DNA of 64,000 bases from Puniceicoccaceae bacterium 5H (GTDB lineage: Bacteria > Verrucomicrobiota > Verrucomicrobiia > Opitutales > Oceanipulchritudinaceae). The stretch is from contig WOUP01000001.1 of NCBI GenBank assembly GCA_009772895.1, positions 124,001 to 188,000 of the forward strand, given 5' to 3'. Shown piece by piece: positions 1 to 22,469 of the stretch. Numbering within the stretch: position 1 is the first letter of the stretch; each line of letters starts with the position of its first letter. The notes under the pieces are model-generated. The model was given only the letters and a program-made list of their open reading frames with translations, ran no database searches and had not been told where the DNA came from. The position numbers and the translations under genes were made by a program.

Positions 1-2007
1 CGCCACAAACTCGCCCAGATCCAGCTGCTCGAGCAAGCTTGCGCTCACGCGTGATGCGTGACGATCTCCCAGCAAAGTGAGGGTCGGCACGCCTTGATGG
101 AGCGCTTCGAGCGTAGTCGTGGTACCGTTGTAGGGAAAGGTGTCGAGGGCGACGTCCACTTGCGCATACAGCTCCAGGTGGGCGGCAATGTCAGGCGTGC
201 GCGGCAGCATCTCTATGCGGTTGCGACTCACGCCCAACTCCTCAAAGGTCTGCAACACCTCCTCCTTGCGGTTGGGGTGCATGTAGCCGCTGTTTTTCAA
301 GACGAGCCGGGCATCCGGAACCGCCACCAGCACGCGTGCCCAGGCTTCGACGACCTGCGGCGTAATCTTGGAGGAATTGTTGAACGAGCCGAAAGTCAGA
401 TAGCCATTTGCTTCCGCCGGCAGAGTCGAGACTTCGGGGGCTTCGCGCGGCAGGCGGAAGCAGTGAAAGCCCTCCGGCAGGCGCACGATCTTTTCGCTCG
501 AATAGCGGTCGGCCTCACCCTCCGGTTCTACCACCGCGTCCACCAGGCGATACTGCATCGCATCCAGGCCGGTCGTATTGGGATACCCGAGCCAGCTGAC
601 GCGCAGGGGCGCCGGGCGGCGCATGAACACCGGCAGCGAGTGGTAACCGGTATGGCCCGAGAGGTCGACCAGTACATCCAGTTCGAGTTGACGCACCAGC
701 TTGGCCACGTCCTCCGGGGCCCGCCCATAGATGTCGTGCCAGTGAGAAGCGTGGCTGCGCAGCAGCGCCGTCATGTTGTCCGGGCGGGAGACGTTGCTGA
801 GGCAATGGATCTCGACCTGACCGCCGTCAAACTGGTCCAGTAACGGCTCGAGAAAAAACGCTACCGAGTGCATCCGGAAGTCGGCCGAGATGATGCCGAC
901 CTGGAGTGTCCGGGAGGGATTCGGAGCGACGGACTGGGGAAATGCGGGCTCTTCGATCTGCGGCTCAAAGCGGCGGGCGAACTCGCGATGGGCTTCGTAG
1001 AGGCTCTTGGCGGTCTGCCGGTGGTCGTAGTTCAGGCTGAGCAGGTAATTGCTGTGATACAGCGACGATCCCGGCGAACGTTTGAGGCACTGGTAATACG
1101 CATCGACCGCGGCCTCGCTGTCGCCGAGAGCAGTATGGATCACACCGAGCATGTTGTAGGTGCCCGCGCGTTCCGGATGCTGTTGGCGTACGCGCTCCGT
1201 ATAGTGCAGCGCTTGGGTGTAATCGTTATGATCGCGGTAAAGCGCGGCCAGGTTGAGGGCTGCCTCCGGAAAGTCGGGACGCAACTCGAGCGCACGTTCA
1301 AAGCTTCGAATCGCCTCGTCCCAGCGCTGAACGCGATTATAGGTCTCGCCCAGGTTCAGGTGGAGCTCCGGCGTCTCGGGGGATAGCTCGACCGCCTTTT
1401 GCAGATGGGGCAGCGCTTGATCGGGTCGGCCCAGGCGCGAGTGCAGCAAGCCCAGATTGTTGTGCAGGCGGTAGCTGTCCGGTTGGCGCCGCAATGCTTC
1501 TTCGTACGTCTCCTGGGCTTCGTCGTAGCGCCGGCAAAGGTCGAGCCGGTGTCCCAACTGGGCCAGGTGCTCGACTTTGTCCGGATGGGCGCGCACCTGC
1601 TTCTGGTAATGCGCGAGCATTACCTCGATGGCGGCTTCGGCCATCGGCTCCTGCACGCCGCTCTGGTCCAGCAGCGTCACCAGGGCCTGCAGAGCCGCCT
1701 GGTCTTCGGGAGCTAGCCGGAGACCTTCGGCATATTCCCGGATGGCCTCCGCGAGGCGGCCCTGACGCTGCAGCGCCTTGGCGAGACCATTGTGCAGGTG
1801 GGCGCTGCGCTCCTGCTGGGTAATGGCTTGACGGAAGAGGCGCTCCGCGGCCTCCGGTTCGTCTGCCTCCAAGGTAAAATGGGCATCGATGGCCAAGGCT
1901 CGAACCGACTGCGGGTGACTCTGGCGGTAGCGCGCCAACGCTTGACGCGCGGCGGCCTGTTCTCCGCGCTCATGTTGCCGGAGGATGTTTTCGAGCGTTG
2001 GGTCCAT
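1..2007 (-). CDS. TPR / O-GlcNAc transferase-like (SPINDLY-type) glycosyltransferase, partial
   Basis: The gene is open at the left window edge, with 669 codons visible and no stop. It starts at an ATG 14 bases after the flaF stop. The first ~350 residues are TPR-like helical pairs (for example LHNNLGLLHSRLGRPDQA). From ~residue 385 the sequence matches the catalytic half of OGT/SPINDLY proteins, with segments such as VGIISADFRMHSV, DVLVDLSGHTGYHSLPVF, SWLGYPNTTGLDAMQYRLVD and FGSFNNSSKITP. Enzymes of this fold transfer sugars from nucleotide sugars to Ser/Thr. As the last visible gene of the flgF-to-flaF operon, it is best read as a flagellin O-glycosyltransferase. The fold assignment is firm; the flagellin substrate is inferred from position only. 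The last helix and C-terminus lie outside the window. Confidence 0.85.
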   Translation of the reverse strand, partial: MDPTLENILRQHERGEQAAARQALARYRQSHPQSVRALAIDAHFTLEADEPEAAERLFRQAITQQERSAHLHNGLAKALQRQGRLAEAIREYAEGLRLAPEDQAALQALVTLLDQSGVQEPMAEAAIEVMLAHYQKQVRAHPDKVEHLAQLGHRLDLCRRYDEAQETYEEALRRQPDSYRLHNNLGLLHSRLGRPDQALPHLQKAVELSPETPELHLNLGETYNRVQRWDEAIRSFERALELRPDFPEAALNLAALYRDHNDYTQALHYTERVRQQHPERAGTYNMLGVIHTALGDSEAAVDAYYQCLKRSPGSSLYHSNYLLSLNYDHRQTAKSLYEAHREFARRFEPQIEEPAFPQSVAPNPSRTLQVGIISADFRMHSVAFFLEPLLDQFDGGQVEIHCLSNVSRPDNMTALLRSHASHWHDIYGRAPEDVAKLVRQLELDVLVDLSGHTGYHSLPVFMRRPAPLRVSWLGYPNTTGLDAMQYRLVDAVVEPEGEADRYSSEKIVRLPEGFHCFRLPREAPEVSTLPAEANGYLTFGSFNNSSKITPQVVEAWARVLVAVPDARLVLKNSGYMHPNRKEEVLQTFEELGVSRNRIEMLPRTPDIAAHLELYAQVDVALDTFPYNGTTTTLEALHQGVPTLTLLGDRHASRVSASLLEQLDLGEFVA

Positions 2008-2021
2008 CGGCGCCGTTTCGT

Positions 2022-2420
2022 CTACTGCCCGCTGCTGGCACGTGCGCGCAGGCCCTGGGCCAGCGATTCGTTGATGCTGATAAAGGAGTTGAGGCGTTCC
2101 GGCCGGGGGTCCGCCCGCAGTTCCAGCCCTTGTTTGACCACAAACACGGCCAGGCTGAGCAGGTTCTGCCGGATTTCCTTCGGTAGGTGTGAGTCCGGAT
2201 TTTGCCAGTCAGCACGCAGCACATCCCAGATCCGCTTGTTGAAGTCCATGGCCTCTTCGGTCACGTCGTCCATCTTGCCGGATGTCATCTGGTTTTGAGC
2301 ACGGCGCAGCTTGAAGGCTGCCTTCTCCAGGACCGCTGCCTCGATGTCGCGACCCGACAGCGTTTGCATGCGGATCTTCTCGTAGCTCGAGGCGGCAGGT
2401 TTGCGAGCCATCGTCATCAT
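2022..2420 (-). CDS. flaF: Flagellar biosynthesis regulator FlaF
   Basis: A 132-aa protein resembling FlaF, with a conserved-looking core around IWDVLRADWQNPDSHLP and LLSLAVFVVKQG. In Alphaproteobacteria FlaF acts with FlbT in flagellin expression and secretion. The N-terminus offers two starts (MMTMARK), so the first residue is uncertain by three codons. It lies 36 bases downstream of flbT and 14 bases upstream of the OGT-like gene, in the same direction, and is therefore probably cotranscribed. The adjacent FlbT makes the identification much safer than the short sequence alone would. Confidence 0.8.
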   Translation of the reverse strand: MMTMARKPAASSYEKIRMQTLSGRDIEAAVLEKAAFKLRRAQNQMTSGKMDDVTEEAMDFNKRIWDVLRADWQNPDSHLPKEIRQNLLSLAVFVVKQGLELRADPRPERLNSFISINESLAQGLRARASSGQ

Positions 2421-2456: not shown

Positions 2457-2870
2457 TTACGCCTGCGACTCTTGATCAGGGTGCAGGGCGCGATTCATGA
2501 GGGCCGTTTCGCGATCGATCAGGGTGTGTGCGAATTTCATGGCCTTGTAGAAGTCGTCGTTGAGCAGGGCTTCGCTGATGTCCATCACTACATCGGTCAG
2601 GCTGGGGGCCGCCTTCAGCAGATCTTTCACCAGGCTGAGGTAGGTGTCGTACTGCTCCTTGCTGCGGCGTTGATCGATATACATCATCTGCAACACAAAG
2701 TAGATGCGTTTGCTGGGAGAGTTGGCCATCTCCTCGGTCATGATGTCCTTCGAGCGCAGGAGCGTCACCTTGTTATCGATGGTGAACTCGGTGGAGTTGC
2801 GACCGTTGGTAATCACGGCACCTCCCAGGATGATGCGCTCGTGTGGCTTGAGCTTGATCTTCAATGGCAT
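2457..2870 (-). CDS. flbT: Flagellin expression regulator FlbT
   Basis: A 137-aa protein with the FlbT pattern: an N-terminal beta region (LKIKLKPHERIILGGAVI), then RIYFVLQMMYID and a helical C-terminal half. In Caulobacter crescentus FlbT acts post-transcriptionally by binding the 5' untranslated region of a flagellin mRNA. Here it lies 52 bases downstream of flgL and upstream of flaF, in the middle of an otherwise ordinary rod/hook operon. The flagellin genes of this window have hairpin leaders (near 17344, 18609 and 19882) that are candidate targets. FlbT is typical of Alphaproteobacteria, so its presence here is notable. Confidence 0.85.
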   Translation of the reverse strand: MPLKIKLKPHERIILGGAVITNGRNSTEFTIDNKVTLLRSKDIMTEEMANSPSKRIYFVLQMMYIDQRRSKEQYDTYLSLVKDLLKAAPSLTDVVMDISEALLNDDFYKAMKFAHTLIDRETALMNRALHPDQESQA

Positions 2871-9538: not shown

Positions 9539-10306
9539 TTAGCGGGTGTCGCCCAGCGTCTGGATCGTTTGCTGCAGACGCTGATCGTAGCTTTGGATGA
9601 TCTTCTGGTGAGTCTCGTAAGCTCGGGAGATGGTGATCAGGTTGACCATTTCCTCGATCGGCTTGACGCCGGCCTCTTCGACGAAGCCCTGCGCAATCTG
9701 GACGTTTTCCTTGGCCAGGGTCGTGGCGCCCGGATCATTGTCCGGATCCACCTTGAACGAGCCGCCGGCCGCGACCAGGTTTTGCGGGTTTTCGAATTGG
9801 GTCAGCTGGATTTGGCCGACCGGTTGCAAGCCTTGGGAAATCGTACCGTCCGCCGCGACCTTCATCGGTCCGAGCGTGGGGTCCAGCTCGATTGGGCCGC
9901 TGTCACCCAGGACGAGGGAGCCGTTGCTGGTCACGAGGTAGTTCTCCGGACTGATGTGAAACTCGCCGTTGCGCGTGTACATCGTCTCACCATCAGGGGC
10001 CTCGATGCCGAAGAAGCCTTCGCCAGTGATGGCGAGATCGTTCGGATTATCGGTCGAGCGGATCTCACCGCCGGTGAAGTTGCGGCTCTGATGGTAGGTG
10101 GGGGAGCGACCGTCCACGGAGTCTGCCAGCAGTTCGGAGTTGGTCGAGCCGGGCATCTTGCCTGCCAGGGTGGCATCGAAGGAACCTTGCAAAGGCTTGT
10201 ATCCCGCGACCTGGGCTGCTGCCAGGTTGTGGGACACCGCTTGCTGCCATTGCTCCAGGCCGTGCATCGCGGCTGCACTTTGCGCCATTCCTATGTTCAT
10301 GCCCAC
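9539..10306 (-). CDS. flgF: Flagellar proximal rod protein FlgF
   Basis: A 255-aa rod protein of the FlgF/FlgG family. It shows HGLEQWQQAVSHNLAAAQVA at the N-terminus, where the usual NN of the family motif is relaxed, then NPNDLAITGEGFFGIEAPDG and a C-terminus with PIEEMVNLITISRAYETHQK. It is the first gene of the visible rod-to-flaF operon. The 128 bases upstream separate it from the formyltransferase gene and probably hold the operon promoter, although none could be identified with confidence. Confidence 0.92.
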   Translation of the reverse strand: MGMNIGMAQSAAAMHGLEQWQQAVSHNLAAAQVAGYKPLQGSFDATLAGKMPGSTNSELLADSVDGRSPTYHQSRNFTGGEIRSTDNPNDLAITGEGFFGIEAPDGETMYTRNGEFHISPENYLVTSNGSLVLGDSGPIELDPTLGPMKVAADGTISQGLQPVGQIQLTQFENPQNLVAAGGSFKVDPDNDPGATTLAKENVQIAQGFVEEAGVKPIEEMVNLITISRAYETHQKIIQSYDQRLQQTIQTLGDTR

Positions 10307-10434: not shown

Positions 10435-11316
10435 CTAAAGCAGGGGGAGCCCCTCGGGCAACGCCTCGAGTGGACCTTCGACGCTCTTCAGCTTCAGGTA
10501 GGTGTCCCCGATGCGGACGAGCACGCGGTCTTCATAGACGAGCACGACCGAGCGGTCCGCATATTGGTCCCGCTTCGACCGCAGATAGCTGTTTTCGACC
10601 CATTCCACATCGCGCACGGTAAAACGGTGGCCGTTCGCCTCGAAGAAGGCAGGGCGGTTGGGGGTACTGAAGGCGCGAATGCGGCGGTAAATTGCTTCAG
10701 AATCTTCTCTGAAATCGATGCACTGGTCTTCCTCCGTCGCGACATAGTAGACCAAGGGTAGATAGGGCGGGTCAGGCACGACCTGATCTGGATCCAGCGG
10801 TTCGAATGCTCGGCGCATGGCCAGTTCGAACGCGTCTGCTTCTGCTCGGAAGCAGAGTTGGTAAAGCAGGGGAGCCTCGAGGTCGGGCGAATACGAGATG
10901 CGGATGCGGGCGATAACCGGCCCGGTGTCCACACCGTCATCCATCAGGTGGCAGCTGGCACCGCAATCCCTACCATACAACAGCGCGCCATTGATCGGGT
11001 GGGGGCCCTTGAGGTCCGGCAAATGCGACGGATGCAGATTGACGAAGATCCGGTGGGCACAGGTCTCTTGCAGGCGTGTAACGGGCAGGATGTAGGGACA
11101 GCCGTTGGAAACGACCACGTCACAATCGGACCGTGTGATGAGGTCCATCAACTGCCGTTTGCTGCGGAAAGGCTGATAAGGGACTTCCTCGGCACTCAAC
11201 GCGCGCTCCAGATATGATCCCTCGGCGGCGGCAACTTCGACGGTAAGCCCCAGCTCACGCATCCTCCTCCAGGTATACGTTCGGTTGCCGATGAGGAGGT
11301 AGCGCGCGCTTTCCAT
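10435..11316 (-). CDS. Methionyl-tRNA-formyltransferase-like sugar/amine formyltransferase
   Basis: A 293-aa protein whose central part is a formyl transferase domain. The catalytic Asn-His-Asp triad is visible as N93/H95 in FVNLHPSHLPDLKG and D130 in HLMDDGVDTGPVIA. It lacks the length and typical start of Fmt and carries a different C-terminal region. Enzymes of this type formylate amino sugars (for example on 3- or 4-amino groups) with formyltetrahydrofolate. It is the last gene of an operon that begins with a flagellin-like protein, so a role in building a formylated flagellin glycan is inferred. Housekeeping Fmt activity is less likely given the neighbours. Confidence 0.8.
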   Translation of the reverse strand: MESARYLLIGNRTYTWRRMRELGLTVEVAAAEGSYLERALSAEEVPYQPFRSKRQLMDLITRSDCDVVVSNGCPYILPVTRLQETCAHRIFVNLHPSHLPDLKGPHPINGALLYGRDCGASCHLMDDGVDTGPVIARIRISYSPDLEAPLLYQLCFRAEADAFELAMRRAFEPLDPDQVVPDPPYLPLVYYVATEEDQCIDFREDSEAIYRRIRAFSTPNRPAFFEANGHRFTVRDVEWVENSYLRSKRDQYADRSVVLVYEDRVLVRIGDTYLKLKSVEGPLEALPEGLPLL

Positions 11317-11325
11317 AGTACGAGC

Positions 11326-11979
11326 TTACAGTGCGGCCTGCGCAGGCGTTACGATCCCTTGCGGGGCATGGACGGTCGCGCCTGCGGGGAGGTGATGAGT
11401 CACGACCGCCCCCGGAGCGATGGCGCAGCTCGTGCCAATGCGCTTCTTGTCCGCTACGGTGGCGTTGATGCCCACGCGGGTGCCATCACCTACGGTGACG
11501 CTCGCACCCACCGCGGCCATGGAATCCAGCCAGCAGTTGTCGCCGACAAAAGAGTGGTGCCCGATCAGCACGTTGTTCCACACAAACACGTTTTTGCCGA
11601 GGCGGGCGCCCGGCTGGATCGCCTGGTGCTCAAGGATCAGGCAGTTGCTGCCAAAAGACAGGATCGACGGGATGCCGGAGCGTGAGCTGATATAGCTGAC
11701 CGGCTCATATCCCGCAGCCTCGACCAGCGCCAGCTTGCTTGCGCGTAGCTGGTTGTGCTCCTGCGGCCCCAGGGCCACAAAGATACGGTGTTCCTCTGCG
11801 CTGAATGTCTGCTGTGCCTCCTCCCATGCTACCACCGGGCGCCCGAGGAAGGACGTTTCCCGCAGGAACTCCCCGTCCACCACGAAGGCAGCAATTTCAT
11901 AGGGAGAATCCGACTTGAAGTAGTAGGAGACGACGTCGGCCACATTGCCGGCGCCGAACACAAGCAGGCGTTTGCTCAT
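11326..11979 (-). CDS. NeuD/PglD-like sugar O/N-acetyltransferase
   Basis: A 217-aa protein. The N-terminus is a small Rossmann-like domain (KRLLVFGAGNVADVVSYYF). From about residue 110 a left-handed beta-helix of hexapeptide repeats follows (CLILEHQAIQPGARLGKNVF, then GDGTRVGINATVADKKRIG). This architecture is that of the PglD/NeuD/PerB sugar acetyltransferases, which acetylate 4-amino sugars or sialic-acid-like sugars. It overlaps the upstream ligase gene by 4 bases and is followed after 9 bases by the formyltransferase gene. A sugar-modifying role is likely; the substrate is unknown. Confidence 0.8.
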   Translation of the reverse strand: MSKRLLVFGAGNVADVVSYYFKSDSPYEIAAFVVDGEFLRETSFLGRPVVAWEEAQQTFSAEEHRIFVALGPQEHNQLRASKLALVEAAGYEPVSYISSRSGIPSILSFGSNCLILEHQAIQPGARLGKNVFVWNNVLIGHHSFVGDNCWLDSMAAVGASVTVGDGTRVGINATVADKKRIGTSCAIAPGAVVTHHLPAGATVHAPQGIVTPAQAAL

Positions 11980-13532
11980 AGGGTCATCGCAGAGAGTTGG
12001 TGTCGATCCACCTTACCGTCCACATTCTTCGGCAGGGGTGAAAGTGAAATGATCTGGTGCGGCAGCATGTAGCTGGGCAAGCGGCAACGCAGGGCCGTCA
12101 GCATCACCTGATCGTCGAAGTCCTTCGCATTGACATAGGCGGCGATGCGGCCTTGCCCGTTGGGGTCGCGGTGGTAGACGACGCAGCATTCGGAGATGCC
12201 TTCGAGGGCACCCAGTGCCGCTTCGATTTCTTCCAGCTCGATGCGGTGGCCTTCGTGCTGGATCTGGTTATCCTTGCGGCCCAGAAACACGTAGTAGCCG
12301 GTCTCCGGGTCCTGGCGCACGAGGTCGCCGGTCCGGTACAGGGTTTCGCGGTAGTTCAGGCGCCAGGGATTGCGGATAAAGGCCCGATCAGTGCGGTCTG
12401 GGTCGCGATAGTAGCCCAGCCCAAGCCCCGGGCCGCTGATGCAGAGCTCGCCAATGCCGCCTTCGGGAACCTGCTGCCTTACTTCGTCGACCACATAGCC
12501 TTGAAAGTTTTCGCCCAGGTGGCCCAGCGGCAGGGGCTTTTCATCCACCAGATCGCGCTGCTTCAAAGTGTAGGCAGCGGCTATGCTGGTGGTCTCGCAC
12601 ATGCCGTAGACATTGATCAGTTGGATGCCGGCGCCCAGATGACGGGCCAGCTGGCGCAACGGCGCCTTGGGGAAGGTTTCTCCGCCAAATGCGACGGTGC
12701 CCAGGCCCCGCAGATCACCCGGACGCAGTGCCCGCAGCCGCAACAGGTAGATGAGCAACGAGGGTACGGAGAACCAGATGGTGCAACCCAGTTCGTTGAT
12801 AGCGTCGACGAGTTCGCGTGGCTGCGTCTGGATTTCGCGGCTGAAGGGGATCATGGCGGCGCCGTTGAAGAGGCTGCCGAAAAAGTCGAAGACTGCGTTG
12901 TCGTAGGCCAGCGGGTTCAGGTTGGTGAACACGTCGTCCGGCCCGATCAGAAAGCGCTCACGGACCCAGTTGCTGAAGTTGAGCACGTTGTCGTGCGTGG
13001 CGATCGAAGCCTTGGGATAGCCGGCGGATCCAGACGTAAACATCAGGTAGGCCGGATGCTGGCCTGTGATGGCAGGCGTCTCGATCAGCGCGTCACTGGG
13101 GTAGGCCATCACCTCCGTTTGCAGCAGCGGATCCTCAAAGCACTCGAGGCGGCAGCCCACCTGTTGCGCCAGGCTACCGGCCCGGGTCAGGTTGGGCTGG
13201 GCGGCGAGGATCAGGCGGGGCTCCACTTGCTGAAGCATGCGCAAGACGCGGGCGTCAGGGCTGCTCAGGTCGACGTTGGCATAGATGACGCCCACGCTCA
13301 TCGCGCCGAGCATGGCGGCAAAGGCGTCGAAGGACTGGTTGTGGAAAATGCAAAGCACGTCTCCGGCGGTCATTCCGCGGGAGAGGAGGAGGCGTGCGAA
13401 CTGGCGCGCACGCATCAGCAATTGGCGGTACGTGAAAGTATGTCCGGTAGGGTAGCGCAGCGCGATGCGGTCCGCGTGCTGTTCGGCGACGGCAGCGAAT
13501 TTCAGGCCCAGGTTATATTGATAGCTATGCAT
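11976..13532 (-). CDS. Adenylate-forming ligase (amino-acid/acyl activating, DltA/NRPS A-domain type)
   Basis: A 518-aa ANL-superfamily enzyme. The phosphate loop is TSGSAGYPK (residues 166-174), later motifs are VYGMCETT and YRTGDLV, and the catalytic lysine region is KNVDGKVDRHQL at the very end. The layout is that of a stand-alone NRPS adenylation domain or D-alanine ligase. No carrier-protein domain is fused, and no small acyl-carrier gene was found in the operon, so it must load a carrier in trans or transfer to another acceptor. It overlaps the upstream FemAB-like gene by 8 bases and the downstream acetyltransferase gene by 4, so all are surely cotranscribed. Confidence 0.85.
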   Translation of the reverse strand: MHSYQYNLGLKFAAVAEQHADRIALRYPTGHTFTYRQLLMRARQFARLLLSRGMTAGDVLCIFHNQSFDAFAAMLGAMSVGVIYANVDLSSPDARVLRMLQQVEPRLILAAQPNLTRAGSLAQQVGCRLECFEDPLLQTEVMAYPSDALIETPAITGQHPAYLMFTSGSAGYPKASIATHDNVLNFSNWVRERFLIGPDDVFTNLNPLAYDNAVFDFFGSLFNGAAMIPFSREIQTQPRELVDAINELGCTIWFSVPSLLIYLLRLRALRPGDLRGLGTVAFGGETFPKAPLRQLARHLGAGIQLINVYGMCETTSIAAAYTLKQRDLVDEKPLPLGHLGENFQGYVVDEVRQQVPEGGIGELCISGPGLGLGYYRDPDRTDRAFIRNPWRLNYRETLYRTGDLVRQDPETGYYVFLGRKDNQIQHEGHRIELEEIEAALGALEGISECCVVYHRDPNGQGRIAAYVNAKDFDDQVMLTALRCRLPSYMLPHQIISLSPLPKNVDGKVDRHQLSAMTL

Positions 13533-14487
13533 GGACAGGTGCGGGCTGAGAGTTCTTGACTAGGCTTGGATCCCGATAGGCGGGAAAGAAGCCACTCTCT
13601 AGGGCATCGGCACTATTTTGCCAAAGTTGATAGCGGGGGCGATGAAGAATTTTACCGACAAGGTATGTGGGGCGAGAAAAACTGGCCCAACCCTGTTTGA
13701 AGCGCGCCAGACCATCTTCTGGATCATCACGGAAGCCCGCACCGCCGCCGAGGTTGAGGTAACGATAGCCTTTGCGGGCGTATTGGTTGATGATCGTGGC
13801 AAAGAGAGCGAACGAGGCCTTGGACGCATAACCCTCGGCGTTATAGGCGCCCAGATGGTAGTGCGTATCCCCTTCGGCGTCGGCCATCAGGATCATGCCG
13901 ACAATCTGGCCACTCGCGTGGCTGCGCGCCGCAAAGGCCCGGCAGCCCGGCAGTGAAAGCAGGACGGAAAAACTGGCGCGCGAAAAACGTGTCAGTCCTC
14001 CGATTTCGTGGCGCTGAATCAAGATGTCATAGAGCGCACACCAGTCATCCAGGTAGTCACATGGTATTGAAAGCTCTTCCACGTGCACAGCCTTGGCGGC
14101 CGCTTTGGCATAGCGCCGGTGATGGCTGCTGAAGTGGCGAGTCGGCTCTGCTTGGAGGTCCACCAGGTGGTGTTGCTTGAAGGGGCGGCAGAGGTCGGAA
14201 AAGGTGCTGCTCAGCTGCTCTGGTGTGGTGTCAGCCAGCGGATCCACTACCGCGACGAGGCTGGTATAGCTTTCGCCGAGGTTCGCGAGGTCGGTGCTGA
14301 GGTATTGCCACTTGCGTAGCGACAACAGGGGGTAGGGCGCCATCAAATCCCAACCGAGCGCCTGCCATTGGCGAGCCAGCAAATAACCGCCCGCGCGCGG
14401 TAGATCCACCGGGTGCATCCACTCCCCGAAACTCTGGGCGTAGCCAGAGCTGCGGTAGAGATGGGGCGGATAGGAGGTGGCAGACAT
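13525..14487 (-). CDS. FemAB/GNAT-like aminoacyl- or acyltransferase
   Basis: A 320-aa protein resembling the FemAB-type GNAT fold. It has FSSHHRRYAKAAAKAVHVEE after a basic stretch, a central IVGMILMADAEGDTHYHLGA strand pair and a C-terminal YLNLGGGAGFRDDPEDGLAR followed by FKQGW, the usual FemAB ending. Such enzymes transfer aminoacyl or acyl groups, in classical cases from aminoacyl-tRNA to lipid II. Paired here with an adenylating ligase, it could use the activated acyl group. It begins 4 bases after the stop of the flagellin-like gene. The specific reaction is unknown. Confidence 0.7.
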   Translation of the reverse strand: MSATSYPPHLYRSSGYAQSFGEWMHPVDLPRAGGYLLARQWQALGWDLMAPYPLLSLRKWQYLSTDLANLGESYTSLVAVVDPLADTTPEQLSSTFSDLCRPFKQHHLVDLQAEPTRHFSSHHRRYAKAAAKAVHVEELSIPCDYLDDWCALYDILIQRHEIGGLTRFSRASFSVLLSLPGCRAFAARSHASGQIVGMILMADAEGDTHYHLGAYNAEGYASKASFALFATIINQYARKGYRYLNLGGGAGFRDDPEDGLARFKQGWASFSRPTYLVGKILHRPRYQLWQNSADALESGFFPAYRDPSLVKNSQPAPVHA

Positions 14488-14491
14488 CGAC

Positions 14492-16069
14492 CTAGTAGTT
14501 CATGACACTGGACGACAGATTGGCACTCGCGGTGCCGGCGGAGCCGAGCGTCGACAGCATTTGGGTGGCCGTAGCGTTCAGTTGTGAGGTTGCCGAGCCG
14601 CTGCCGTTGATCGCGCCGAAGATACTACTGTTGCCGCCCGCCGAGCCCAACAGGCCGAGCACGCTGGAAGAACCGCCCGCTGCGCCGAGCATGGCCGCGG
14701 CTCCGGCTCCGGCGCCCGTGCCGCTGGAGACGCCCTGCTGCAATTGCACGACTTCGGTCACTTGAGACTGAGCGTCCTCAAACACCTGCTTTTGTTCTGA
14801 GAGCACTTCGAGGGCTGAGTCAATCTTGGCGATGTAGTCCTGGAAGTCGAAATCGCGCTTGTATTGATCGGCGGCGGTGTAGTTGAAGGTTGCGTGCAGC
14901 GTCTTTTCGTCGTTCGGACCGTAACCGTTGTTTTCAAAGGTGAAGCGTACGCCCGTGCCCAGGTCGATGTCATGCTCGCCGTCACCAGTCAGGTCGATTC
15001 CTCCCACGCGGCTCTTGAGCATGCCGTCGGCATCGTAAAGCTCTACCACCGACTTCTCACCCTTATAGATGACCTTCATATTGTAGACGCCGGTGTCGAG
15101 TTCGGCCTTGTCGGTGTCGATGCCGTTCGTCTCGATGTCGAGCAGGTTGATGGCCGGGCCGGTATAATCGCGGGTGCCCTTGAAATTCCACTCCACGGAA
15201 CTGGTTTGGTTGGCAGCCTCTTCTCCGTCCTGCAATTCGTGAAAATAGACCTTCTGGTAATCGAGGTTGGCGTAGAGGGAGACGGGGCCGTCGTTCTCGT
15301 AGTCCCACTTGTCGTAAGACTGGAGCAGTTGCAGCTTGTCGATGGTCAGTTCGATACCCGAGTCGAGGGTGACCTTTTCCTGGCCGGAGCCGCTCAAATC
15401 TACACCTTCCTTGGTTTCGAGCAGCTTGCCGAATTGGTCGCGCAGCTCAATGGAAGAGCCCGGTCCTTCGTAAATGATCTCGAGCTTATAGGTGCCGTCC
15501 TCGAGTTCCGGCAAAAAATCGGTGCGTTCGACTGCCTTCGCGTCAGAAATATCAAGCCCGCGCAGCCCTGAACCCTGATTGCGGACCAACGTCGCCACAT
15601 CGTAGCCGACGGTCACTTTTGCCCCGGATGGCCGTTTGATCAGGTCCAGGGAGTCCTCGCCCGACAGATTCAGGCTGTTGACGTTGAGGTCGATTTTGCT
15701 CGAGCCCGTGTTGAGCACGATGTCGCGGCCATCAAAAAGTGCTTTTTCGTTGAAGGTCGTGGCACCGACCACCTGCTCGAAACCCGTGGTCAATGACCGC
15801 AGTGCCCCGTAGTACTCGTCGTATTTGTAGTCCGAGAGGCCGCCTTTGGCTCCGGCCACCGCATATTCCCGCATGGACTGCAGGTTGTATTCGAGGTCTT
15901 CGATTCGGCCAATGGCACCCAGGATCAGTGACAGCGACTCGTTGGCGCTGCTGGTGACGATCCGCTTCTCCCGCGCGGACTCGGCGGACGTCGTTTCCGT
16001 GGATCGCGTTTTGGTAAACGCCATCGGGTCGATGAATTCTCGGATCTGCGTTGAGCTGAGTCGCTCCAT
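14492..16069 (-). CDS. Atypical flagellin-like protein with a duplicated beta domain and Gly/Ser/Ala-rich tail
   Basis: A 525-aa protein with a partial flagellin plan. Residues ~45-118 match a flagellin D1 segment (RIEDLEYNLQSMREYAVAGA, then TTFNEKALFDG). Two copies of a beta module follow: ~191-273 (GTYKLEIIYEGPGSSIELRD) and ~325-397 (GVYNMKVIYKGEKSVVELYD), each continuing into a GVDLSGSG/GIDLTGDG turn. A C-terminal D1-like helix spans ~403-445. The conserved D0 ends of true flagellins are missing; instead there is a charged N-terminus and an ~80-residue Gly/Ala/Ser/Leu tail. It heads an operon with four modification-type enzymes. It may be a minor filament, cap or secreted flagellin-like protein. 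No good ribosome-binding site is visible. Confidence 0.65.
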   Translation of the reverse strand: MERLSSTQIREFIDPMAFTKTRSTETTSAESAREKRIVTSSANESLSLILGAIGRIEDLEYNLQSMREYAVAGAKGGLSDYKYDEYYGALRSLTTGFEQVVGATTFNEKALFDGRDIVLNTGSSKIDLNVNSLNLSGEDSLDLIKRPSGAKVTVGYDVATLVRNQGSGLRGLDISDAKAVERTDFLPELEDGTYKLEIIYEGPGSSIELRDQFGKLLETKEGVDLSGSGQEKVTLDSGIELTIDKLQLLQSYDKWDYENDGPVSLYANLDYQKVYFHELQDGEEAANQTSSVEWNFKGTRDYTGPAINLLDIETNGIDTDKAELDTGVYNMKVIYKGEKSVVELYDADGMLKSRVGGIDLTGDGEHDIDLGTGVRFTFENNGYGPNDEKTLHATFNYTAADQYKRDFDFQDYIAKIDSALEVLSEQKQVFEDAQSQVTEVVQLQQGVSSGTGAGAGAAAMLGAAGGSSSVLGLLGSAGGNSSIFGAINGSGSATSQLNATATQMLSTLGSAGTASANLSSSVMNY

Positions 16070-16228: not shown

Positions 16229-17302
16229 TTAACCCACGAGGCTGAGGACCGACTGTTGGCTTTGCGAGGCCAGCGACAGCGAGGAGATACCGAGCTGTTG
16301 GCTGGTTTGCAGGGCCAGCAAGTTGGCGCCTTCTTCGTTCAGGTCGGCGAGGACCAGCTTGTCGGCACCTTCTTCCAAGGTGTTGATCAGGTCGTTGGTG
16401 AAGTCCTGGCGCAGCGACACGATGTTCACGTTCTGTGACAGTTGCTTCGCATTGTTCACCAGAGCCTGGTCGAAGGCCTCGAGGTCTTGCACCATCTGCT
16501 TCAGGTTGCCCTGATAGTTGTCGGCGTCGACGAAGCTCAGCGAGCCACCCGTGCCGTCCGCGTTCTGCGCGGCGCTGGCGGAGCCGGTGATGTCGGCCGA
16601 ACGGATACCCACGACAGCCGCATTGGCAGAGCCGGTGCCGGCGGAGGCGAGACCGGAGCTATCCGCATTCAGCGTGATGGCGTAGGTCTGGGAAACCGTG
16701 GCGGTGCCGACGGTGCGGGCGCCGGTGATGTCGGAGTTGTTCGCGATTTCACCGTTGGTGTCCGTCGTGACGCCGGCGGTGGAACCTTGAACGTTGACCC
16801 CGGTGATATCCAGCGTGGAGCCGCCGAAGTTTTCGTTGAACTGCACCGTCATCGTTTCGGTGCCGCCCGTGGTGCGGTCCGATTGCGAGGACTGGAGAAG
16901 GTTCACACCCTTGTAGGAGGCGTCGGCCGCGAACTGGTTCAACTGGACCATCAGTTCGTTGAACTGCTTGCCGGAGTTGGCGCGGTCGTTGGAGTCGGAA
17001 GAAGCGAGGGCTTCGTCCACAACACCCTTCATGGCGGAGACGATACCGCGCATGGCGGTGATGCCGTTGTCAGCCGCATTCAGCGTGCTGACCGCCTGGC
17101 CCATGCCGTCGAGGCGGGCTTCCAGCTGGGTGGCGCGGTCGTTCAGGTTGGACGAAGCAAAGAAGTTCGTCGGGTTGTCGATCGCGGAATTGACCTTCTT
17201 ACCCGTCGAAAGACGTTCCTGGACGGTGGTAAGAGTCTTGTTCGTCTGCTGGAGAGACGCGAGATTGGACCGCATACCTGCGGACAGCGTAATGTTGCTC
17301 AT
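16229..17302 (-). CDS. Flagellin 1
   Basis: A 357-aa flagellin. The N-terminal D0/D1 is MSNITLSAGMRSNLASLQQT, then GKKVNSAIDNPTNFFASSNL. The short variable middle (~150-255) is rich in Thr/Ser/Gly, and the C-terminal helix ends ISSLSLASQSQQSVLSLVG. The chosen ATG has a strong AGAAAGGTAG ribosome-binding site; a longer reading frame from 17356 lacks one. The termini, with the DNPTNFF motif and a QSVLSL end, resemble alphaproteobacterial flagellins. It is one of three tandem paralogues of equal length. A hairpin at 17344-17370 lies in its leader. The Ser/Thr-rich middle is a plausible glycosylation zone. Confidence 0.97.
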   Translation of the reverse strand: MSNITLSAGMRSNLASLQQTNKTLTTVQERLSTGKKVNSAIDNPTNFFASSNLNDRATQLEARLDGMGQAVSTLNAADNGITAMRGIVSAMKGVVDEALASSDSNDRANSGKQFNELMVQLNQFAADASYKGVNLLQSSQSDRTTGGTETMTVQFNENFGGSTLDITGVNVQGSTAGVTTDTNGEIANNSDITGARTVGTATVSQTYAITLNADSSGLASAGTGSANAAVVGIRSADITGSASAAQNADGTGGSLSFVDADNYQGNLKQMVQDLEAFDQALVNNAKQLSQNVNIVSLRQDFTNDLINTLEEGADKLVLADLNEEGANLLALQTSQQLGISSLSLASQSQQSVLSLVG

Positions 17303-17493: not shown

Positions 17494-18567
17494 TTAACCC
17501 ACGAGGCTGAGGACGGACTGCTGGCTTTGGGAGGCCAACGACAGCGACTGAATCCCGAGTTGCTGCGAGGTTTGCAGCGCCAGGAGATTCGCCCCTTCTT
17601 CATTTAAATCGGCCAGCGTCAACTTGTCGGCACCTTCTTCGAGGGTGTTGATCATGTCCGTCGTGAAGTCTTGTCGCAGGGACACGATGTTCACGTTTTG
17701 GGACAGCTGCTTGGCAGTATTGACGAGAGCTTGGTCGAACGACTCCAGATCCTTCACCATTTGCTGGAGATTGGTCTGGTAGTTGTCTCCATCCACGAAA
17801 CTCAGCGCATGGCTGGTGCCATCAGCGTTTTGGCTGGCGGCGGCGCTACCGGTGATGTCTGCGGAACGGATGCCCACGACAGCCGCATTGGCGGCGCCGG
17901 TGCCACCCGAGGCGATGCTGCTGCCGGCGATATTGAGGGAGATGGCATACTCCTGGGACACGGTGCTGGTGCCCACAGAGCGCGCGCCCGTAATATCGGA
18001 GGCGTTGGCAATTTCACCATTGGAATCGACGCTGACGCCGCTGGTGGAGCCTTGGACGTTGATGCCCGAGATAGAGAGCTGCGATTCGCCGAAGTTCTCG
18101 TTGAACTGCACCGTCAAGGTCTCCGTGCCACCGCTCGTGCGGTCAGCCTGGCCGGACTTCAGGAGATTGACGCCCTTGTAGGAGGAGTCGTTCACGAAGC
18201 TCTGCAGTTGGGAAATCAGTTCATTGAACTGCTGCCCCAGGCTGGCACGGTCGTTGGAGTCGGAGCTGGACAGCGTTTCGTCAACGACACCCTTCATCGC
18301 ACTGACGATGCCGCGCATGGCGGTAATGCCTTTGTCGGCGGCTTCGAGGGTGCTGACGGCCTGACCCATCCCGTCCAGACGGGATTCGAGTTGCGAAGCC
18401 CGGTCGTTCAGGTTGGAGGCGGCAAAGAAGTTGGTGGGGTTGTCGACGGCCGAATTCACCTTCCGGCCAGTGGCCAGACGTTCTTGGGTCGTGCCCAGCA
18501 ACTTGGAGGTTTGCTGGAGCGACACGAGGTTAGCGCGCATGCCCGCGCTGATGGCGATTGAGTTCAT
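17494..18567 (-). CDS. Flagellin 2
   Basis: A 357-aa flagellin paralogue of the genes at 16229 and 18768. It begins MNSIAISAGMRANLVSLQQT, has the VNSAVDNPTNFFAASNLNDR block and ends IQSLSLASQSQQSVLSLVG. The ribosome-binding region ACCAGAAAGGTAG is identical to that of flagellin 1, although the rest of the leader differs. The variable middle keeps the frame GINVQGSTSGVSVDSNGEIA. Three equal-length copies point to a multi-flagellin filament, as in Caulobacter or rhizobia, or to recent tandem duplication with selection on the termini. Confidence 0.97.
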   Translation of the reverse strand: MNSIAISAGMRANLVSLQQTSKLLGTTQERLATGRKVNSAVDNPTNFFAASNLNDRASQLESRLDGMGQAVSTLEAADKGITAMRGIVSAMKGVVDETLSSSDSNDRASLGQQFNELISQLQSFVNDSSYKGVNLLKSGQADRTSGGTETLTVQFNENFGESQLSISGINVQGSTSGVSVDSNGEIANASDITGARSVGTSTVSQEYAISLNIAGSSIASGGTGAANAAVVGIRSADITGSAAASQNADGTSHALSFVDGDNYQTNLQQMVKDLESFDQALVNTAKQLSQNVNIVSLRQDFTTDMINTLEEGADKLTLADLNEEGANLLALQTSQQLGIQSLSLASQSQQSVLSLVG

Positions 18568-18767: not shown

Positions 18768-19841
18768 TTAACCCAGGAGGCTCAGAACGGACTGGTTGGA
18801 TTGAGACGCGAGCGAGAGGGACTGGGTGCCGAGCTGTTGGGCCGTTTGCAGGGCCAGCAGGTTCGCACCTTCTTCGTTCAGGTCGGCGAGCGTCAGCTTG
18901 TCCGCACCTTCCTCAAGCGTGTTGATGAGGTCGGTGGTGAAGTCCTGGCGCACCGTCACGATGTTGACGTTCTGGGCCAGTTGCTTGGAGGAATTCACCA
19001 GGGCCTGGTCGAACTTTTCGAGATCCTGCACCATGGCGCGGAGGTTGGCCTGGTAGGTGTCCGGGTCGACGAAGCTCAAGGTGTGGCCGGTGCCGTTGGC
19101 ATTTTCCGCGGCGGAGGCGGTGCCGGTGATGTCGGCTGCACGGATGCCCACCACGGACTGGTTGGCGGTGCCGGTGCCGCCCGATGTAAGGCCGGTGCCG
19201 TCTACGTTGAGCGTCAGCGCGTATTGCTGAGAAACCGTGCTGGTGCCGTTGGAGCGGGCACTGGTGATGTCGGAGGCGTTGGCAATTTCACCATTGGCGT
19301 CGAGCGAGACGCCACCGGTGGAGCCCTGGATGTTCACACCCTTGATCGAGAGGGTGCTGTCGCCGAAGTCTTCGTTGAACTGCACCGTCATCAGCGTCGT
19401 GGAGCCGGCGGTGCGGCCACTTTCGGCCGACTTCAGCAGGTTGATGCCCTTATAGGAGCCATCGCGAGAGAGGCCTTCGAGCTGGACGAGCAATTCGTTG
19501 AACTGCTTGCCGAGCGAAGCGCGGTCGCCGGAGTCGGAACTGGAGAGCGCTTCGTCTACGACACCCTTCATGGCACTGACGATGCTGCGCATGGAGGTCA
19601 TGGCCGTATCGGCGGCATTGAGGGTCGAGATGGCCTGGCCCATGCCGTCGAGGCGAGCCTCGAGCGCGGAGGCACGGTCGTTGAGGTTGGAGGCTGCGAA
19701 GAAGTTGAGGGGATTGTCGATGGCGCTGTTGACCTTGCGACCCGTGGAGAGGTGCTCCTGGGTCTTGTTCATCAGGTTCGACGTCTTTTGCAGCGAGACC
19801 AGGTTCGCCCGCATGCCGGTTGATAGTGCGATGTCGCTCAT
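18768..19841 (-). CDS. Flagellin 3
   Basis: A 357-aa flagellin. It begins MSDIALSTGMRANLVSLQKT, contains VNSAIDNPLNFFAASNLNDR and ends TQSLSLASQSNQSVLSLLG. It differs from the other two in small ways (NPLNFF for NPTNFF, EHLSTG for ERLATG/ERLSTG, SLLG end). Its upstream bases (AACCAGCTTCGGAATT) lack the AGAAAGGTAG ribosome-binding site of the other two, so it may be translated at a different level. It is the first of the three in transcription order and diverges from the asparagine synthetase gene. Confidence 0.97.
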   Translation of the reverse strand: MSDIALSTGMRANLVSLQKTSNLMNKTQEHLSTGRKVNSAIDNPLNFFAASNLNDRASALEARLDGMGQAISTLNAADTAMTSMRSIVSAMKGVVDEALSSSDSGDRASLGKQFNELLVQLEGLSRDGSYKGINLLKSAESGRTAGSTTLMTVQFNEDFGDSTLSIKGVNIQGSTGGVSLDANGEIANASDITSARSNGTSTVSQQYALTLNVDGTGLTSGGTGTANQSVVGIRAADITGTASAAENANGTGHTLSFVDPDTYQANLRAMVQDLEKFDQALVNSSKQLAQNVNIVTVRQDFTTDLINTLEEGADKLTLADLNEEGANLLALQTAQQLGTQSLSLASQSNQSVLSLLG

Positions 19842-20163: not shown

Positions 20164-22152
20164 ATGTGTGGAATAGCCGGAGCCTTTGATGCGACCACCC
20201 GAGAGCACTTGCCTTTGGAGTGGGTGCGCGACGCCTCGGCCTGTCTGGAACGACGAGGCCCGGATGCTGAAGGCTTCGCCAACGGGCCGGGATACGCTTT
20301 TGCGCACCGTCGCCTCAGCATCATCGATGTGGAAGGCAGCCCGCAGCCCTGGAAAGACCCGCAGACCGGCGATGTGCTGGTGTTCAATGGCGAGATCTAC
20401 AACTTCCGCGAGTTGCGGGTGCTGCTCCAATCCGAAGGACACACCTTCGTCAGTCAGGGCGATACCGAGGTCTTGCTGCGAGCGTTGCAGGCATGGGGCC
20501 GCAAGGCACTGGGCAAGCTCAACGGCATGTTTGCCTTCGCCTTTTATCGCGCCCAGGAGCAGCGCCTTTGGCTCGCGCGCGACCATGCCGGGGTGAAGCC
20601 GCTCTATTATACCTTTGTCGGCAGTTGCTGCTTTTTCGGCTCGTCCATGGCCTCGGTGCTGAGCTTTCCGGGCGTGGAGCGCCAGTTGGATCTGGTCACC
20701 TTTTCGCACTATCTCTCCACGATCCGCACCACGCTGGGCCAGCGCACCCTGGTCGAAGGCGTGTCTACGCTGGAGCCGGGCAGCCTGCTCGAGCTCAGCC
20801 CGCGCCTGCCCAAGGCCATGCCCCTGCGCTACTGGCAATTGCCCGTGGTGCCGCCCGCCTCCAAGCGCCCGCGTGACATCCAGGATGCTGCGGAGGAGAT
20901 TCGCGCCGAAGTGCGAGCTGCAGTGGAGCGCCAGTTGGTGAGCGACGTCCCGCTGGGGGGCTTTTTAAGTGGCGGCCTCGATTCCTGTATCATCGCGAGC
21001 CAGGCCAGCCTTATTACCGGAGGACGCTACCACTGTTATACCGTGGGCTATGAGCGCGAGGGGACCTTCGGGCAAGCCTATCACGAGTTCCCTTATGTCG
21101 ATCTTGCGGCGGATGCCCTGCAGCTGCGCTGCCGGAAGATCGTGCTGGACGAGAAGGACTATCTGGACGACTGGCAATATTTGCTGGAGCAGAAGGGGCA
21201 GCCGCTCAGCACACCCAACGAAGTCGGGATCTACCGCCTGGCCCGCGCCTTGCGCAACGATTATACTGTGGCGCTGAGCGGGGAGGGAGCCGACGAGGTT
21301 TTTGCTGGCTATACGCTACCCTATGCTTCCGCCTGGGACTTTGAGCGCGCACATGAGCTCGAGCACTGGCCGCAGGCCGAGCGCGAGGCCTACGAGAAGT
21401 CGCTGCGCCGACTCTACGGCGTAGACCGCTTCGGCAATCTGACCGAACATTATTTCCGGCTCAATTCGTGGGTGCCGCTCGGGATGAAGTTCCAGATCCT
21501 CAACGAGCAGACCATTGAGGGCGTGCAGCAAGACGAACATATGTTCCTGCATTACCTCCGCGTGCTCGAGGGGTTGAGCGACCTGACCCCCATGGATCGT
21601 TACCTGCACCTGCATGCCCAGATCAACCTCGAGGGGCTGCTCAGCCGCCTGGATTCGAGTACGATGGCGGCGAGTGTGGAAGGGCGGGTGCCCTTTACCG
21701 ATCCGCGCCTGATGAGCATGGCATTCCAGTTGCCCGACGCGCTCAAGTTGGACTGGATCGACGACGAGGCGCGCAAGGAGGGCAAGACGCTCAACGCCCA
21801 GGAGCTGGACGCCCAAGGGCTGGTGCTGCCCAAGCGGGTTTTACGCGAAGGCTTCCGCAACGACCTGCCGCCGGAAATCCTGACGCGCCGCAAGGTTTCG
21901 TTCCCCACACCTTTCCAGGAAATGCTGGCGGGGCCGTGGCGGCAGTTCGCGCGCGATACGCTGCTCGGTTCAGAAATCGTCGATGAGCTTTGCCGGGGAG
22001 ATGCCGTTGCCTTCCTGCTCGAACGTTCCGGTGAGCGCGCCTACAACATGCCGTTGTGGCCGCTGCTCAATATCGCATTATGGGCAGAAACGTTTGACAT
22101 TCGCATGCCGACGGCTACTTCGACAGATGTCGCCTCGGTAACTACCTCATGA
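20164..22152 (+). CDS. asnB: Asparagine-synthetase-family glutamine-dependent amidotransferase (AsnB type)
   Basis: A 662-aa protein. The start MCGIAGAF exposes Cys2 as the N-terminal glutaminase nucleophile, and RGPDAEGF and VFNGEIYNF complete the class II amidotransferase domain. The ATP-pyrophosphatase loop SGGLDS is at residues 269-274, followed by a synthetase half with ALSGEGADEVFAGY and ASVEGRVPFTDPRL. By sequence it is a full asparagine synthetase. However, its stop overlaps the ATG of the FliS-like gene and it faces a flagellin, so a role in amidating a flagellin glycan precursor is possible. Plain asparagine synthesis cannot be excluded. Confidence 0.9.
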   Translation: MCGIAGAFDATTREHLPLEWVRDASACLERRGPDAEGFANGPGYAFAHRRLSIIDVEGSPQPWKDPQTGDVLVFNGEIYNFRELRVLLQSEGHTFVSQGDTEVLLRALQAWGRKALGKLNGMFAFAFYRAQEQRLWLARDHAGVKPLYYTFVGSCCFFGSSMASVLSFPGVERQLDLVTFSHYLSTIRTTLGQRTLVEGVSTLEPGSLLELSPRLPKAMPLRYWQLPVVPPASKRPRDIQDAAEEIRAEVRAAVERQLVSDVPLGGFLSGGLDSCIIASQASLITGGRYHCYTVGYEREGTFGQAYHEFPYVDLAADALQLRCRKIVLDEKDYLDDWQYLLEQKGQPLSTPNEVGIYRLARALRNDYTVALSGEGADEVFAGYTLPYASAWDFERAHELEHWPQAEREAYEKSLRRLYGVDRFGNLTEHYFRLNSWVPLGMKFQILNEQTIEGVQQDEHMFLHYLRVLEGLSDLTPMDRYLHLHAQINLEGLLSRLDSSTMAASVEGRVPFTDPRLMSMAFQLPDALKLDWIDDEARKEGKTLNAQELDAQGLVLPKRVLREGFRNDLPPEILTRRKVSFPTPFQEMLAGPWRQFARDTLLGSEIVDELCRGDAVAFLLERSGERAYNMPLWPLLNIALWAETFDIRMPTATSTDVASVTTS

Positions 22153-22469
22153 ATCGAAACGTGCCGGCCGCCTACAAAAAAGCTCAAGCTGCAGGCTCCA
22201 CTCCCATGGAACGCCTCCGCCATGTGACACGTCGTGCTTTGGAGCATTGCACCAAGCAGGAGAAGGAGCAGACGCTTGTCGGGCTTCAGCACCTCCGCAA
22301 CGGCTTGGACTACCAACGCATGCCGGAGATCGCACTGGGCCTGGGCCGCATCTACCAGTATTGCGAGACCGCGGTACAGGAAGAGAACTGGGGTGAAGCC
22401 GTGCGTATGTTAGCCGGTCTCGATGCAATTTGGGATCAGCTGGAGAAGAAAAAGCGGAAAGGTGCCTGA
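22149..22469 (+). CDS. fliS: Divergent FliS-like flagellin export chaperone
   Basis: A 106-aa helical protein. The N-terminal NVPAAYKKAQ matches the conserved AYKQ start of FliS. TPMERLRHVTRRALEHC aligns with helix 1, QTLVGLQHLRNGLDY with the LRxSLD region, and GRIYQYCETAVQEENWGEAV with the YDYM/LLEAN region. FliS binds the C-terminal helix of flagellin and prevents early polymerisation. It overlaps asnB by 4 bases and the zinc-ribbon gene by 1. The similarity is weak and the call leans on the flagellin context. Confidence 0.6.
   Translation: MNRNVPAAYKKAQAAGSTPMERLRHVTRRALEHCTKQEKEQTLVGLQHLRNGLDYQRMPEIALGLGRIYQYCETAVQEENWGEAVRMLAGLDAIWDQLEKKKRKGA

Follow-up and report, generated by a model that had tools for sequence, protein, structure and literature searches.

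The five-gene cassette and its flagellar surroundings

The window studied here is the whole 64,000-nucleotide stretch from positions 124,001 to 188,000 of contig WOUP01000001.1 of Puniceicoccaceae bacterium 5H (G000:C1:124001-188000); its left flank was examined on the same contig (L070, L075). Among its flagellar genes lies a run of five minus-strand open reading frames (ORFs), in the order FLL-GNAT-LIG-NeuD-like-FMT, that would encode a flagellin-like protein followed by four putative acyl- or formyl-modifying enzymes (Table 1). The coordinates first noted for these genes were confirmed, and the successive spacings from FLL to FMT (a gap of 4 bp, overlaps of 8 and then 4 bp, and a gap of 9 bp) bear out an initial annotation that described gaps of at most 9 bases or overlaps. 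The start of FLL is 159 bp from the third of three canonical flagellin genes (19841-16229). At the other end of the run, 128 bp separate FMT from flgF, after which come flgG, flgA, flgH, flgI, flgN, flgK, flgL, flbT and flaF; flbT and flaF were named by Pfam, the remaining flg genes from their sequence and from an order that agrees with that in relatives. With canonical flagellar genes on both sides, this five-gene unit may be transcribed together with more of the flagellar genes, as one longer unit.

The flagellar region extends to the left of the window, where flhA, flhF, fliA, motA and motB were recognised (judged by sequence). The same flank carries a DegT-family aminotransferase gene (window -5924 to -4782; L070:14076-15218) and, beyond it, genes for a GT2 glycosyltransferase, a Sulfotransfer_3 protein and a Sel1 protein, and then for a 1332-aa protein that has two units of tetratricopeptide repeats (TPR) plus a GT41 domain in one chain. 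The last of these genes starts at window position 2007 and adjoins flaF-flbT. Three plus-strand ORFs in this part of the window (58-843, 868-1386 and 1792-2298) were rejected, each being antisense to the GT41 gene over all or most of its length.

Table 1. Positions of the cassette genes and associated features in the window
Feature	Position	Strand	Basis or remark
FLL, D0-less flagellin-like protein, 525 aa	14492..16069	-	D1-like helices, two beta modules, Gly/Ala tail
GNAT, FemAB-like, candidate amino-sugar N-acyl/aminoacyl transferase	13525..14487	-	PF13480; relatives near DesI-type aminotransferase genes
LIG, free-standing nonribosomal peptide synthetase (NRPS)-type adenylation enzyme	11976..13532	-	A3/A4/A5/A8/A10 motifs intact
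Putative NeuD/PglD/VioB-family left-handed beta-helix N-acyltransferase	11326..11979	-	TIGR03570; absent in sister species
FMT, sugar N-formyltransferase-like	10435..11316	-	N93-H95-D130 triad; C-terminal Formyl_trans_C domain
flgF, downstream flank of cassette	9539..10306	-	Sequence and matching order in relatives
Flagellin gene 3, likely glycosylation substrate	16229..17302	-	
Flagellin gene 2, likely substrate	17494..18567	-	
Flagellin gene 1, likely substrate	18768..19841	-	
flaF	2022..2420	-	PF07309 1e-25
flbT	2457..2870	-	PF07378 1e-39
Tandem TPR-GT41 protein, N-terminal half of 1332 aa; candidate flagellin O-glycosyltransferase	1..2007	-	Continues 1991 bp left of window
FliS-like chaperone, FLL cognate by family context	22149..22469	+	Overlaps asnB-like gene by 4 bp
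Asparagine-synthase-like amidotransferase (asnB-like)	20164..22152	+	Resembles XrtA/PEP-CTERM amidotransferase

The tailoring enzymes, their conservation and their relatives

Profile searches agree with the family names that all five products had been given. The GNAT protein matches PF13480 at 2e-7. LIG has an AMP-binding match (1.5e-70) and scores 322.7 bits with TIGR01733, above the cut-off; sequence comparison relates it to the solved structures of DltA and of NRPS adenylation domains. The A3, A5, A8 and A10 motifs of this ligase are intact in the window species and in two outgroups, and the A4 aspartate, which the window species has kept, hints at a substrate resembling an amino acid. The NeuD-like protein falls just short of the TIGR03570 cut-off (149.7 against 160.8 bits), while FMT matches both PF00551 and PF02911 and keeps its Asn-His-Asp triad in the window species, in the sister species and in a homolog from another genome (L100). 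No KAS or SDR gene is present in the operon. Considering these families and motifs, the four enzymes are most likely amino-sugar acyl/formyl tailoring enzymes.

One other genome of the genus, that of a sister species (G001), was compared. Its gene order is the same as in the window species, with asnB, three flagellins, FLL, GNAT, LIG and FMT leading into flgF and onward, and FLL, GNAT, LIG and FMT are all open and 59-74% identical. NeuD is missing from the sister cassette and there is no ortholog elsewhere in that genome (best match 23% over a fragment). Accordingly, of the five-gene order that the initial annotation proposed to look for in other Opitutae, only the FLL/GNAT/LIG/FMT part recurs in the sister. 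The shared genes tested have a pairwise ratio of nonsynonymous to synonymous divergence (dN/dS) much smaller than 1 (0.253/1.157 in the case of LIG, dS being near saturation), so that none of them has the overall pattern of a gene that died long ago.

The ligase has nevertheless evolved unequally in the two species. With two outgroups as reference, the outgroup-conserved sites at which LIG has diverged number 11 for the window species and 31 for the sister (relative-rate p=0.003), whereas GNAT, FMT, the aminotransferase and FLL changed symmetrically in the same test. The sister changes include those in A3 (T166D, S167I, G168E, S169A, K174T), A4 (D211E), A5 (G310S) and A8 (R419S, D421R). The sister ligase (L004:10951-12510) is still an intact ORF in which the A3, A5 and A8 motifs have been replaced, which suggests either a pseudoenzyme or a function lost recently. 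Since the species that lacks NeuD has a ligase without its ATP-binding motifs, and since LIG-NeuD adjacency recurs in another genome (G480), the two genes may form a single acyl branch; as a single case in one genus, this is suggestive only. The combined loss would be a natural experiment that points to paired enzymes.

With respect to relatives elsewhere in the phylum, an initial contig scan with the GNAT query gave no matches, and GNAT is absent from the other sampled families of the order apart from one weak match. Full-length GNAT homologs come from eight genomes, seven of which belong to a single other genus (g140) and the eighth to family f94. All are in polysaccharide-type clusters, three of the eight with a DesI-type aminotransferase gene close by (L058, L059 and L064; the first two belong to one genus, so that this proximity represents two lineages), and in L064 a NeuD gene directly follows GNAT. 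LIG homologs are likewise found in the polysaccharide clusters of two genomes, G480 and G646, the former having a NeuD homolog directly after the ligase (L098). For FMT, the 378 genomes searched contain a single homolog at E below 1e-18; it resides in a polysaccharide cluster with WbqC, three genes away from a DesI/VioA-type aminotransferase gene (L100). Each enzyme type thus appears, from its gene neighbourhoods, to be a polysaccharide amino-sugar tailoring enzyme elsewhere.

Such neighbourhoods for the GNAT, LIG and FMT homologs would be expected if the enzymes tailored the sugar of an O-antigen, capsule or exopolysaccharide, their flagellar position being incidental. We consider this unlikely: the cassette is kept between flagellin and flgF with tight spacing in both species, the flagellar region also has the aminotransferase, the GT2 and the TPR-GT41 beside flaF-flbT, and the flagellar stretches that were read showed no gene for polysaccharide export. 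The initial annotation had named the occurrence of these enzymes beside O-antigen or capsule genes in relatives, and not beside flagellar genes, as an argument against its own interpretation. This is indeed the situation of the single homologs, but the full enzyme set was found together only in this genus, within the flagellar region.

A candidate flagellin glycosylation island

The aminotransferase is closest to DesI, both in the PDB (2po3 at 5e-57, the next at 5e-37) and in profile searches, where TIGR04427 scores 253 bits, 82 bits above the next model, versus 171 for PseC. The aminotransferase and its enzyme neighbours are 71-87% identical in the sister species (Sel1, 67%), and RmlB is present in both genomes. 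The sole NeuB gene belongs to a capsule-like cluster on a different contig, and this cluster has no aminotransferase gene. Together, the DesI-type aminotransferase, RmlB and the capsule-cluster location of NeuB point to 4-amino-4,6-dideoxyglucose, and not a nonulosonic acid, as the sugar destined for the flagellum. A donor of the pseudaminic or legionaminic type bearing acyl or formyl groups has something to recommend it, in that NeuD and PseJ-type formyltransferases work in nonulosonic acid pathways and the genome does possess a NeuB gene. It is nonetheless improbable, because the NeuB cluster contains no PseC/LegC-type gene and the sole aminotransferase of the flagellar region scores best as DesI; the combination of a flagellum-linked NeuB and a PseC/LegC aminotransferase, as in nonulosonate glycosylation of flagellin, was not found.

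We therefore favor the view that the four enzyme genes probably serve acyl/formyl tailoring within a flagellin glycosylation island that would make an N-acylated or N-formylated 4-amino-4,6-dideoxyglucose. The location of the enzymes, their conservation in the genus, the nearby DesI-type aminotransferase and the FlmG-like TPR-GT41 protein make decoration of the flagellin glycan the best reading. In this respect the initial annotation, which had suggested an acylated or formylated sugar on flagellin, seems to have been correct, the enzymes being of the sugar-tailoring type and flagellin their presumed target. RmlB would supply dTDP-4-keto-6-deoxyglucose, which the DesI/VioA-type aminotransferase (4.8-5.9 kb left of the window) would convert to dTDP-4-amino-4,6-dideoxyglucose (viosamine/Qui4N). 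Either FMT would N-formylate the 4-amine of Qui4N or, alternatively, this amine would be N-acylated, with LIG activating the group as an adenylate and NeuD and/or the FemAB-like GNAT transferring it. The tandem TPR-GT41 protein and GT2 would then attach the glycan to Ser/Thr residues of the three flagellins. What was computed comprises gene content and order, conservation, domain families, motif integrity and the association of the enzyme families with polysaccharide and DesI-type genes; from these we infer the identity of the sugar, the acyl group, the transferase that uses the LIG product and flagellin as the acceptor.

Several points weigh against this interpretation. The cassette is present in two genomes only. 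A PDB sequence search found no solved relative of GNAT, and there is no carrier protein gene in the flagellar region, the carriers being elsewhere in the genome. The TIGR04427 score of the aminotransferase is below the DesI equivalog cut-off of 650, and its gene is about 15 kb from the cassette, linked to it by their common flagellar region. Finally, the product could be common to lipopolysaccharide or capsule, as single homologs serve surface polysaccharide elsewhere.

Our search of the literature found nothing on point for flagellin glycosylation in Opitutae or Verrucomicrobia. In other bacteria the closest parallels are the viosamine island of Pseudomonas syringae and the glycosylation island of P. 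aeruginosa PAK (PMC3927599), which share with this locus a VioA-type aminotransferase, a VioB/NeuD-family acyltransferase (here a putative one, lacking in the sister), acyl-tailoring genes and, putatively, a modified 4-amino-4,6-dideoxyglucose on flagellin. However, the cassette here has an NRPS-type ligase, a FemAB-like GNAT and a formyltransferase, no VioS/VioR/ACP or VioT was recognised, and the aminotransferase gene is distant. Because the ACP/VioS/VioR feature of the viosamine island is absent, the locus would be a variant that works like the viosamine-type islands and not a member of them. The flagellin islands of enterobacteria and Aeromonas include formyltransferases, acyl ligases and carrier proteins (PMC4875605, PMC7874193); the formyltransferases, acetyltransferases and AMP-dependent acyl ligases of their flagellar loci resemble the present set, but they differ in phylum, in locus position (here between the flagellins and flgF) and in enzyme combination. 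In view of these precedents (PMC3927599, PMC4875605, PMC7874193), this would not be a wholly undescribed filament decoration system. The type B flagellin peptidylamido-glycan of Clostridioides difficile (PMC5207245) has an amino sugar whose amine is capped with amino-acid-derived groups, as may be the case here, but the sugar there is Fuc3N and the enzymes differ. The locus would be a case, open to testing, in which a flagellar operon has taken up tailoring enzymes of polysaccharide synthesis.

Like Caulobacter FlmG (PMC7591256), the candidate glycosyltransferase has a TPR N-terminal part and a glycosyltransferase domain and is encoded with flagellar genes, FlaF/FlbT among them; unlike FlmG, it has two TPR-GT41 units in tandem, and its donor is apparently not pseudaminic acid. 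GT41-like genes also occur near flagellins in L033, L039, L042, L043 and L047. The sulfotransferase-like protein (L070:16365-17249), whose gene adjoins those of GT2 and the aminotransferase and which is 87% identical in the sister, could sulfate the glycan.

The flagellin-like protein and its FliS-like partner

FLL matches the Flagellin_N profile only at positions 61-136 (E=1.5e-5), with no match to the first 60 positions, and none of 17 FLL family members matches Flagellin_C. The window protein has two copies of a beta module. A D1 domain is supported by the match to the second half of Flagellin_N, by the PDB flagellin matches of the family profile, which cover the D1 region (the best being the Sphingomonas cell-surface flagellin homolog, 2zbi), and by Foldseek. 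The structure model, built from 4 sequences, is of low confidence (mean predicted local distance difference test score 48.8); its leading Foldseek matches are uniformly flagellin/FlgL, with low template-modelling scores. The 17-member alignment was too diverse for patterns, and a six-member alignment, which has matches in three Opitutales/Opitutia metagenome-assembled genomes, was used instead. FLL is one of a family of D0-less, D1-containing proteins of about 525 aa that occur in some flagellated lineages of the order.

FLL is present in 15 of 373 genomes of the order, and FlgI in 14 of these 15 versus 91 of the 358 others (Fisher 1e-7, relatedness ignored); for the window's own family the association is 7/7 versus 0/10. 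The FLL genome that lacks FlgI is 74% complete and has flagellin genes (L043). Because many flagellated genomes of the order have no FLL, the protein is accessory. None was found in viral contigs. Directly downstream of FLL (within 70 bp or overlapping) there is a FliS-like gene in 10 loci outside the genus. Its product scores 28.3 bits with PF02561 in L035 (cut-off 26.7) and 23.2 in the window copy, and the family profile matches solved FliS (1ory, 1.5e-9). The locus thus also reveals a lineage-restricted flagellin-like family that would have its own FliS-like chaperone.

The four enzymes are absent from the FLL loci outside the genus (in L032, a 655-aa ORF matches LIG over about 100 residues only), so that FLL looks like a flagellar-export type protein separate from the enzymes, its neighbourhood with them being specific to this genus. 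Modification of FLL itself might be imagined because its gene heads the run: it precedes GNAT by 4 bp in the window and is the immediate upstream neighbour of GNAT in the sister as well. This is very improbable, as there are no such enzymes around FLL in 13 other genomes (the 7 searched for GNAT all lack it) and the usual partner of FLL is a FliS-like chaperone. The suggestion that FLL belongs to the system or is modified by it was thus not supported; it is apparently an undescribed kind of flagellin-like protein and probably not part of the enzyme system. The Sphingomonas cell-surface flagellin (2zbi) and the flagellin-homologous proteins of Vibrio (PMC6692518) are also flagellin relatives with possible non-filament roles, but FLL differs in lacking D0 segments, in its two beta modules and in its pairing with a FliS-like gene. 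A more speculative proposal, which we find doubtful when taken as a whole, has two parts. In the first, FLL and the FliS-like protein would form an undescribed export pair that depends on the flagellum; the D0-less FLL could not polymerise in the standard manner and would coat or cap the flagellum or be secreted through it. In the second, the NRPS-type LIG, together with NeuD or the FemAB-like GNAT, would add an acyl group derived from an amino acid to a 4-amino-4,6-dideoxy sugar of the flagellum, a branch naturally lost in the sister.

The asnB-like amidotransferase gene adjoins the flagellins in both species of the genus and is near flbT-flaF in L043. The FLL tails of L039 and L042 have TQA(T/N)QTPEQLxSLQ motifs, missing from the window FLL, that by eye are like the flagellin D0 C-terminal sequence. 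Three genomes each encode two diverged FLL paralogs: G008 (L037/L038), G012 (L040/L041) and G015 (L044/L045).

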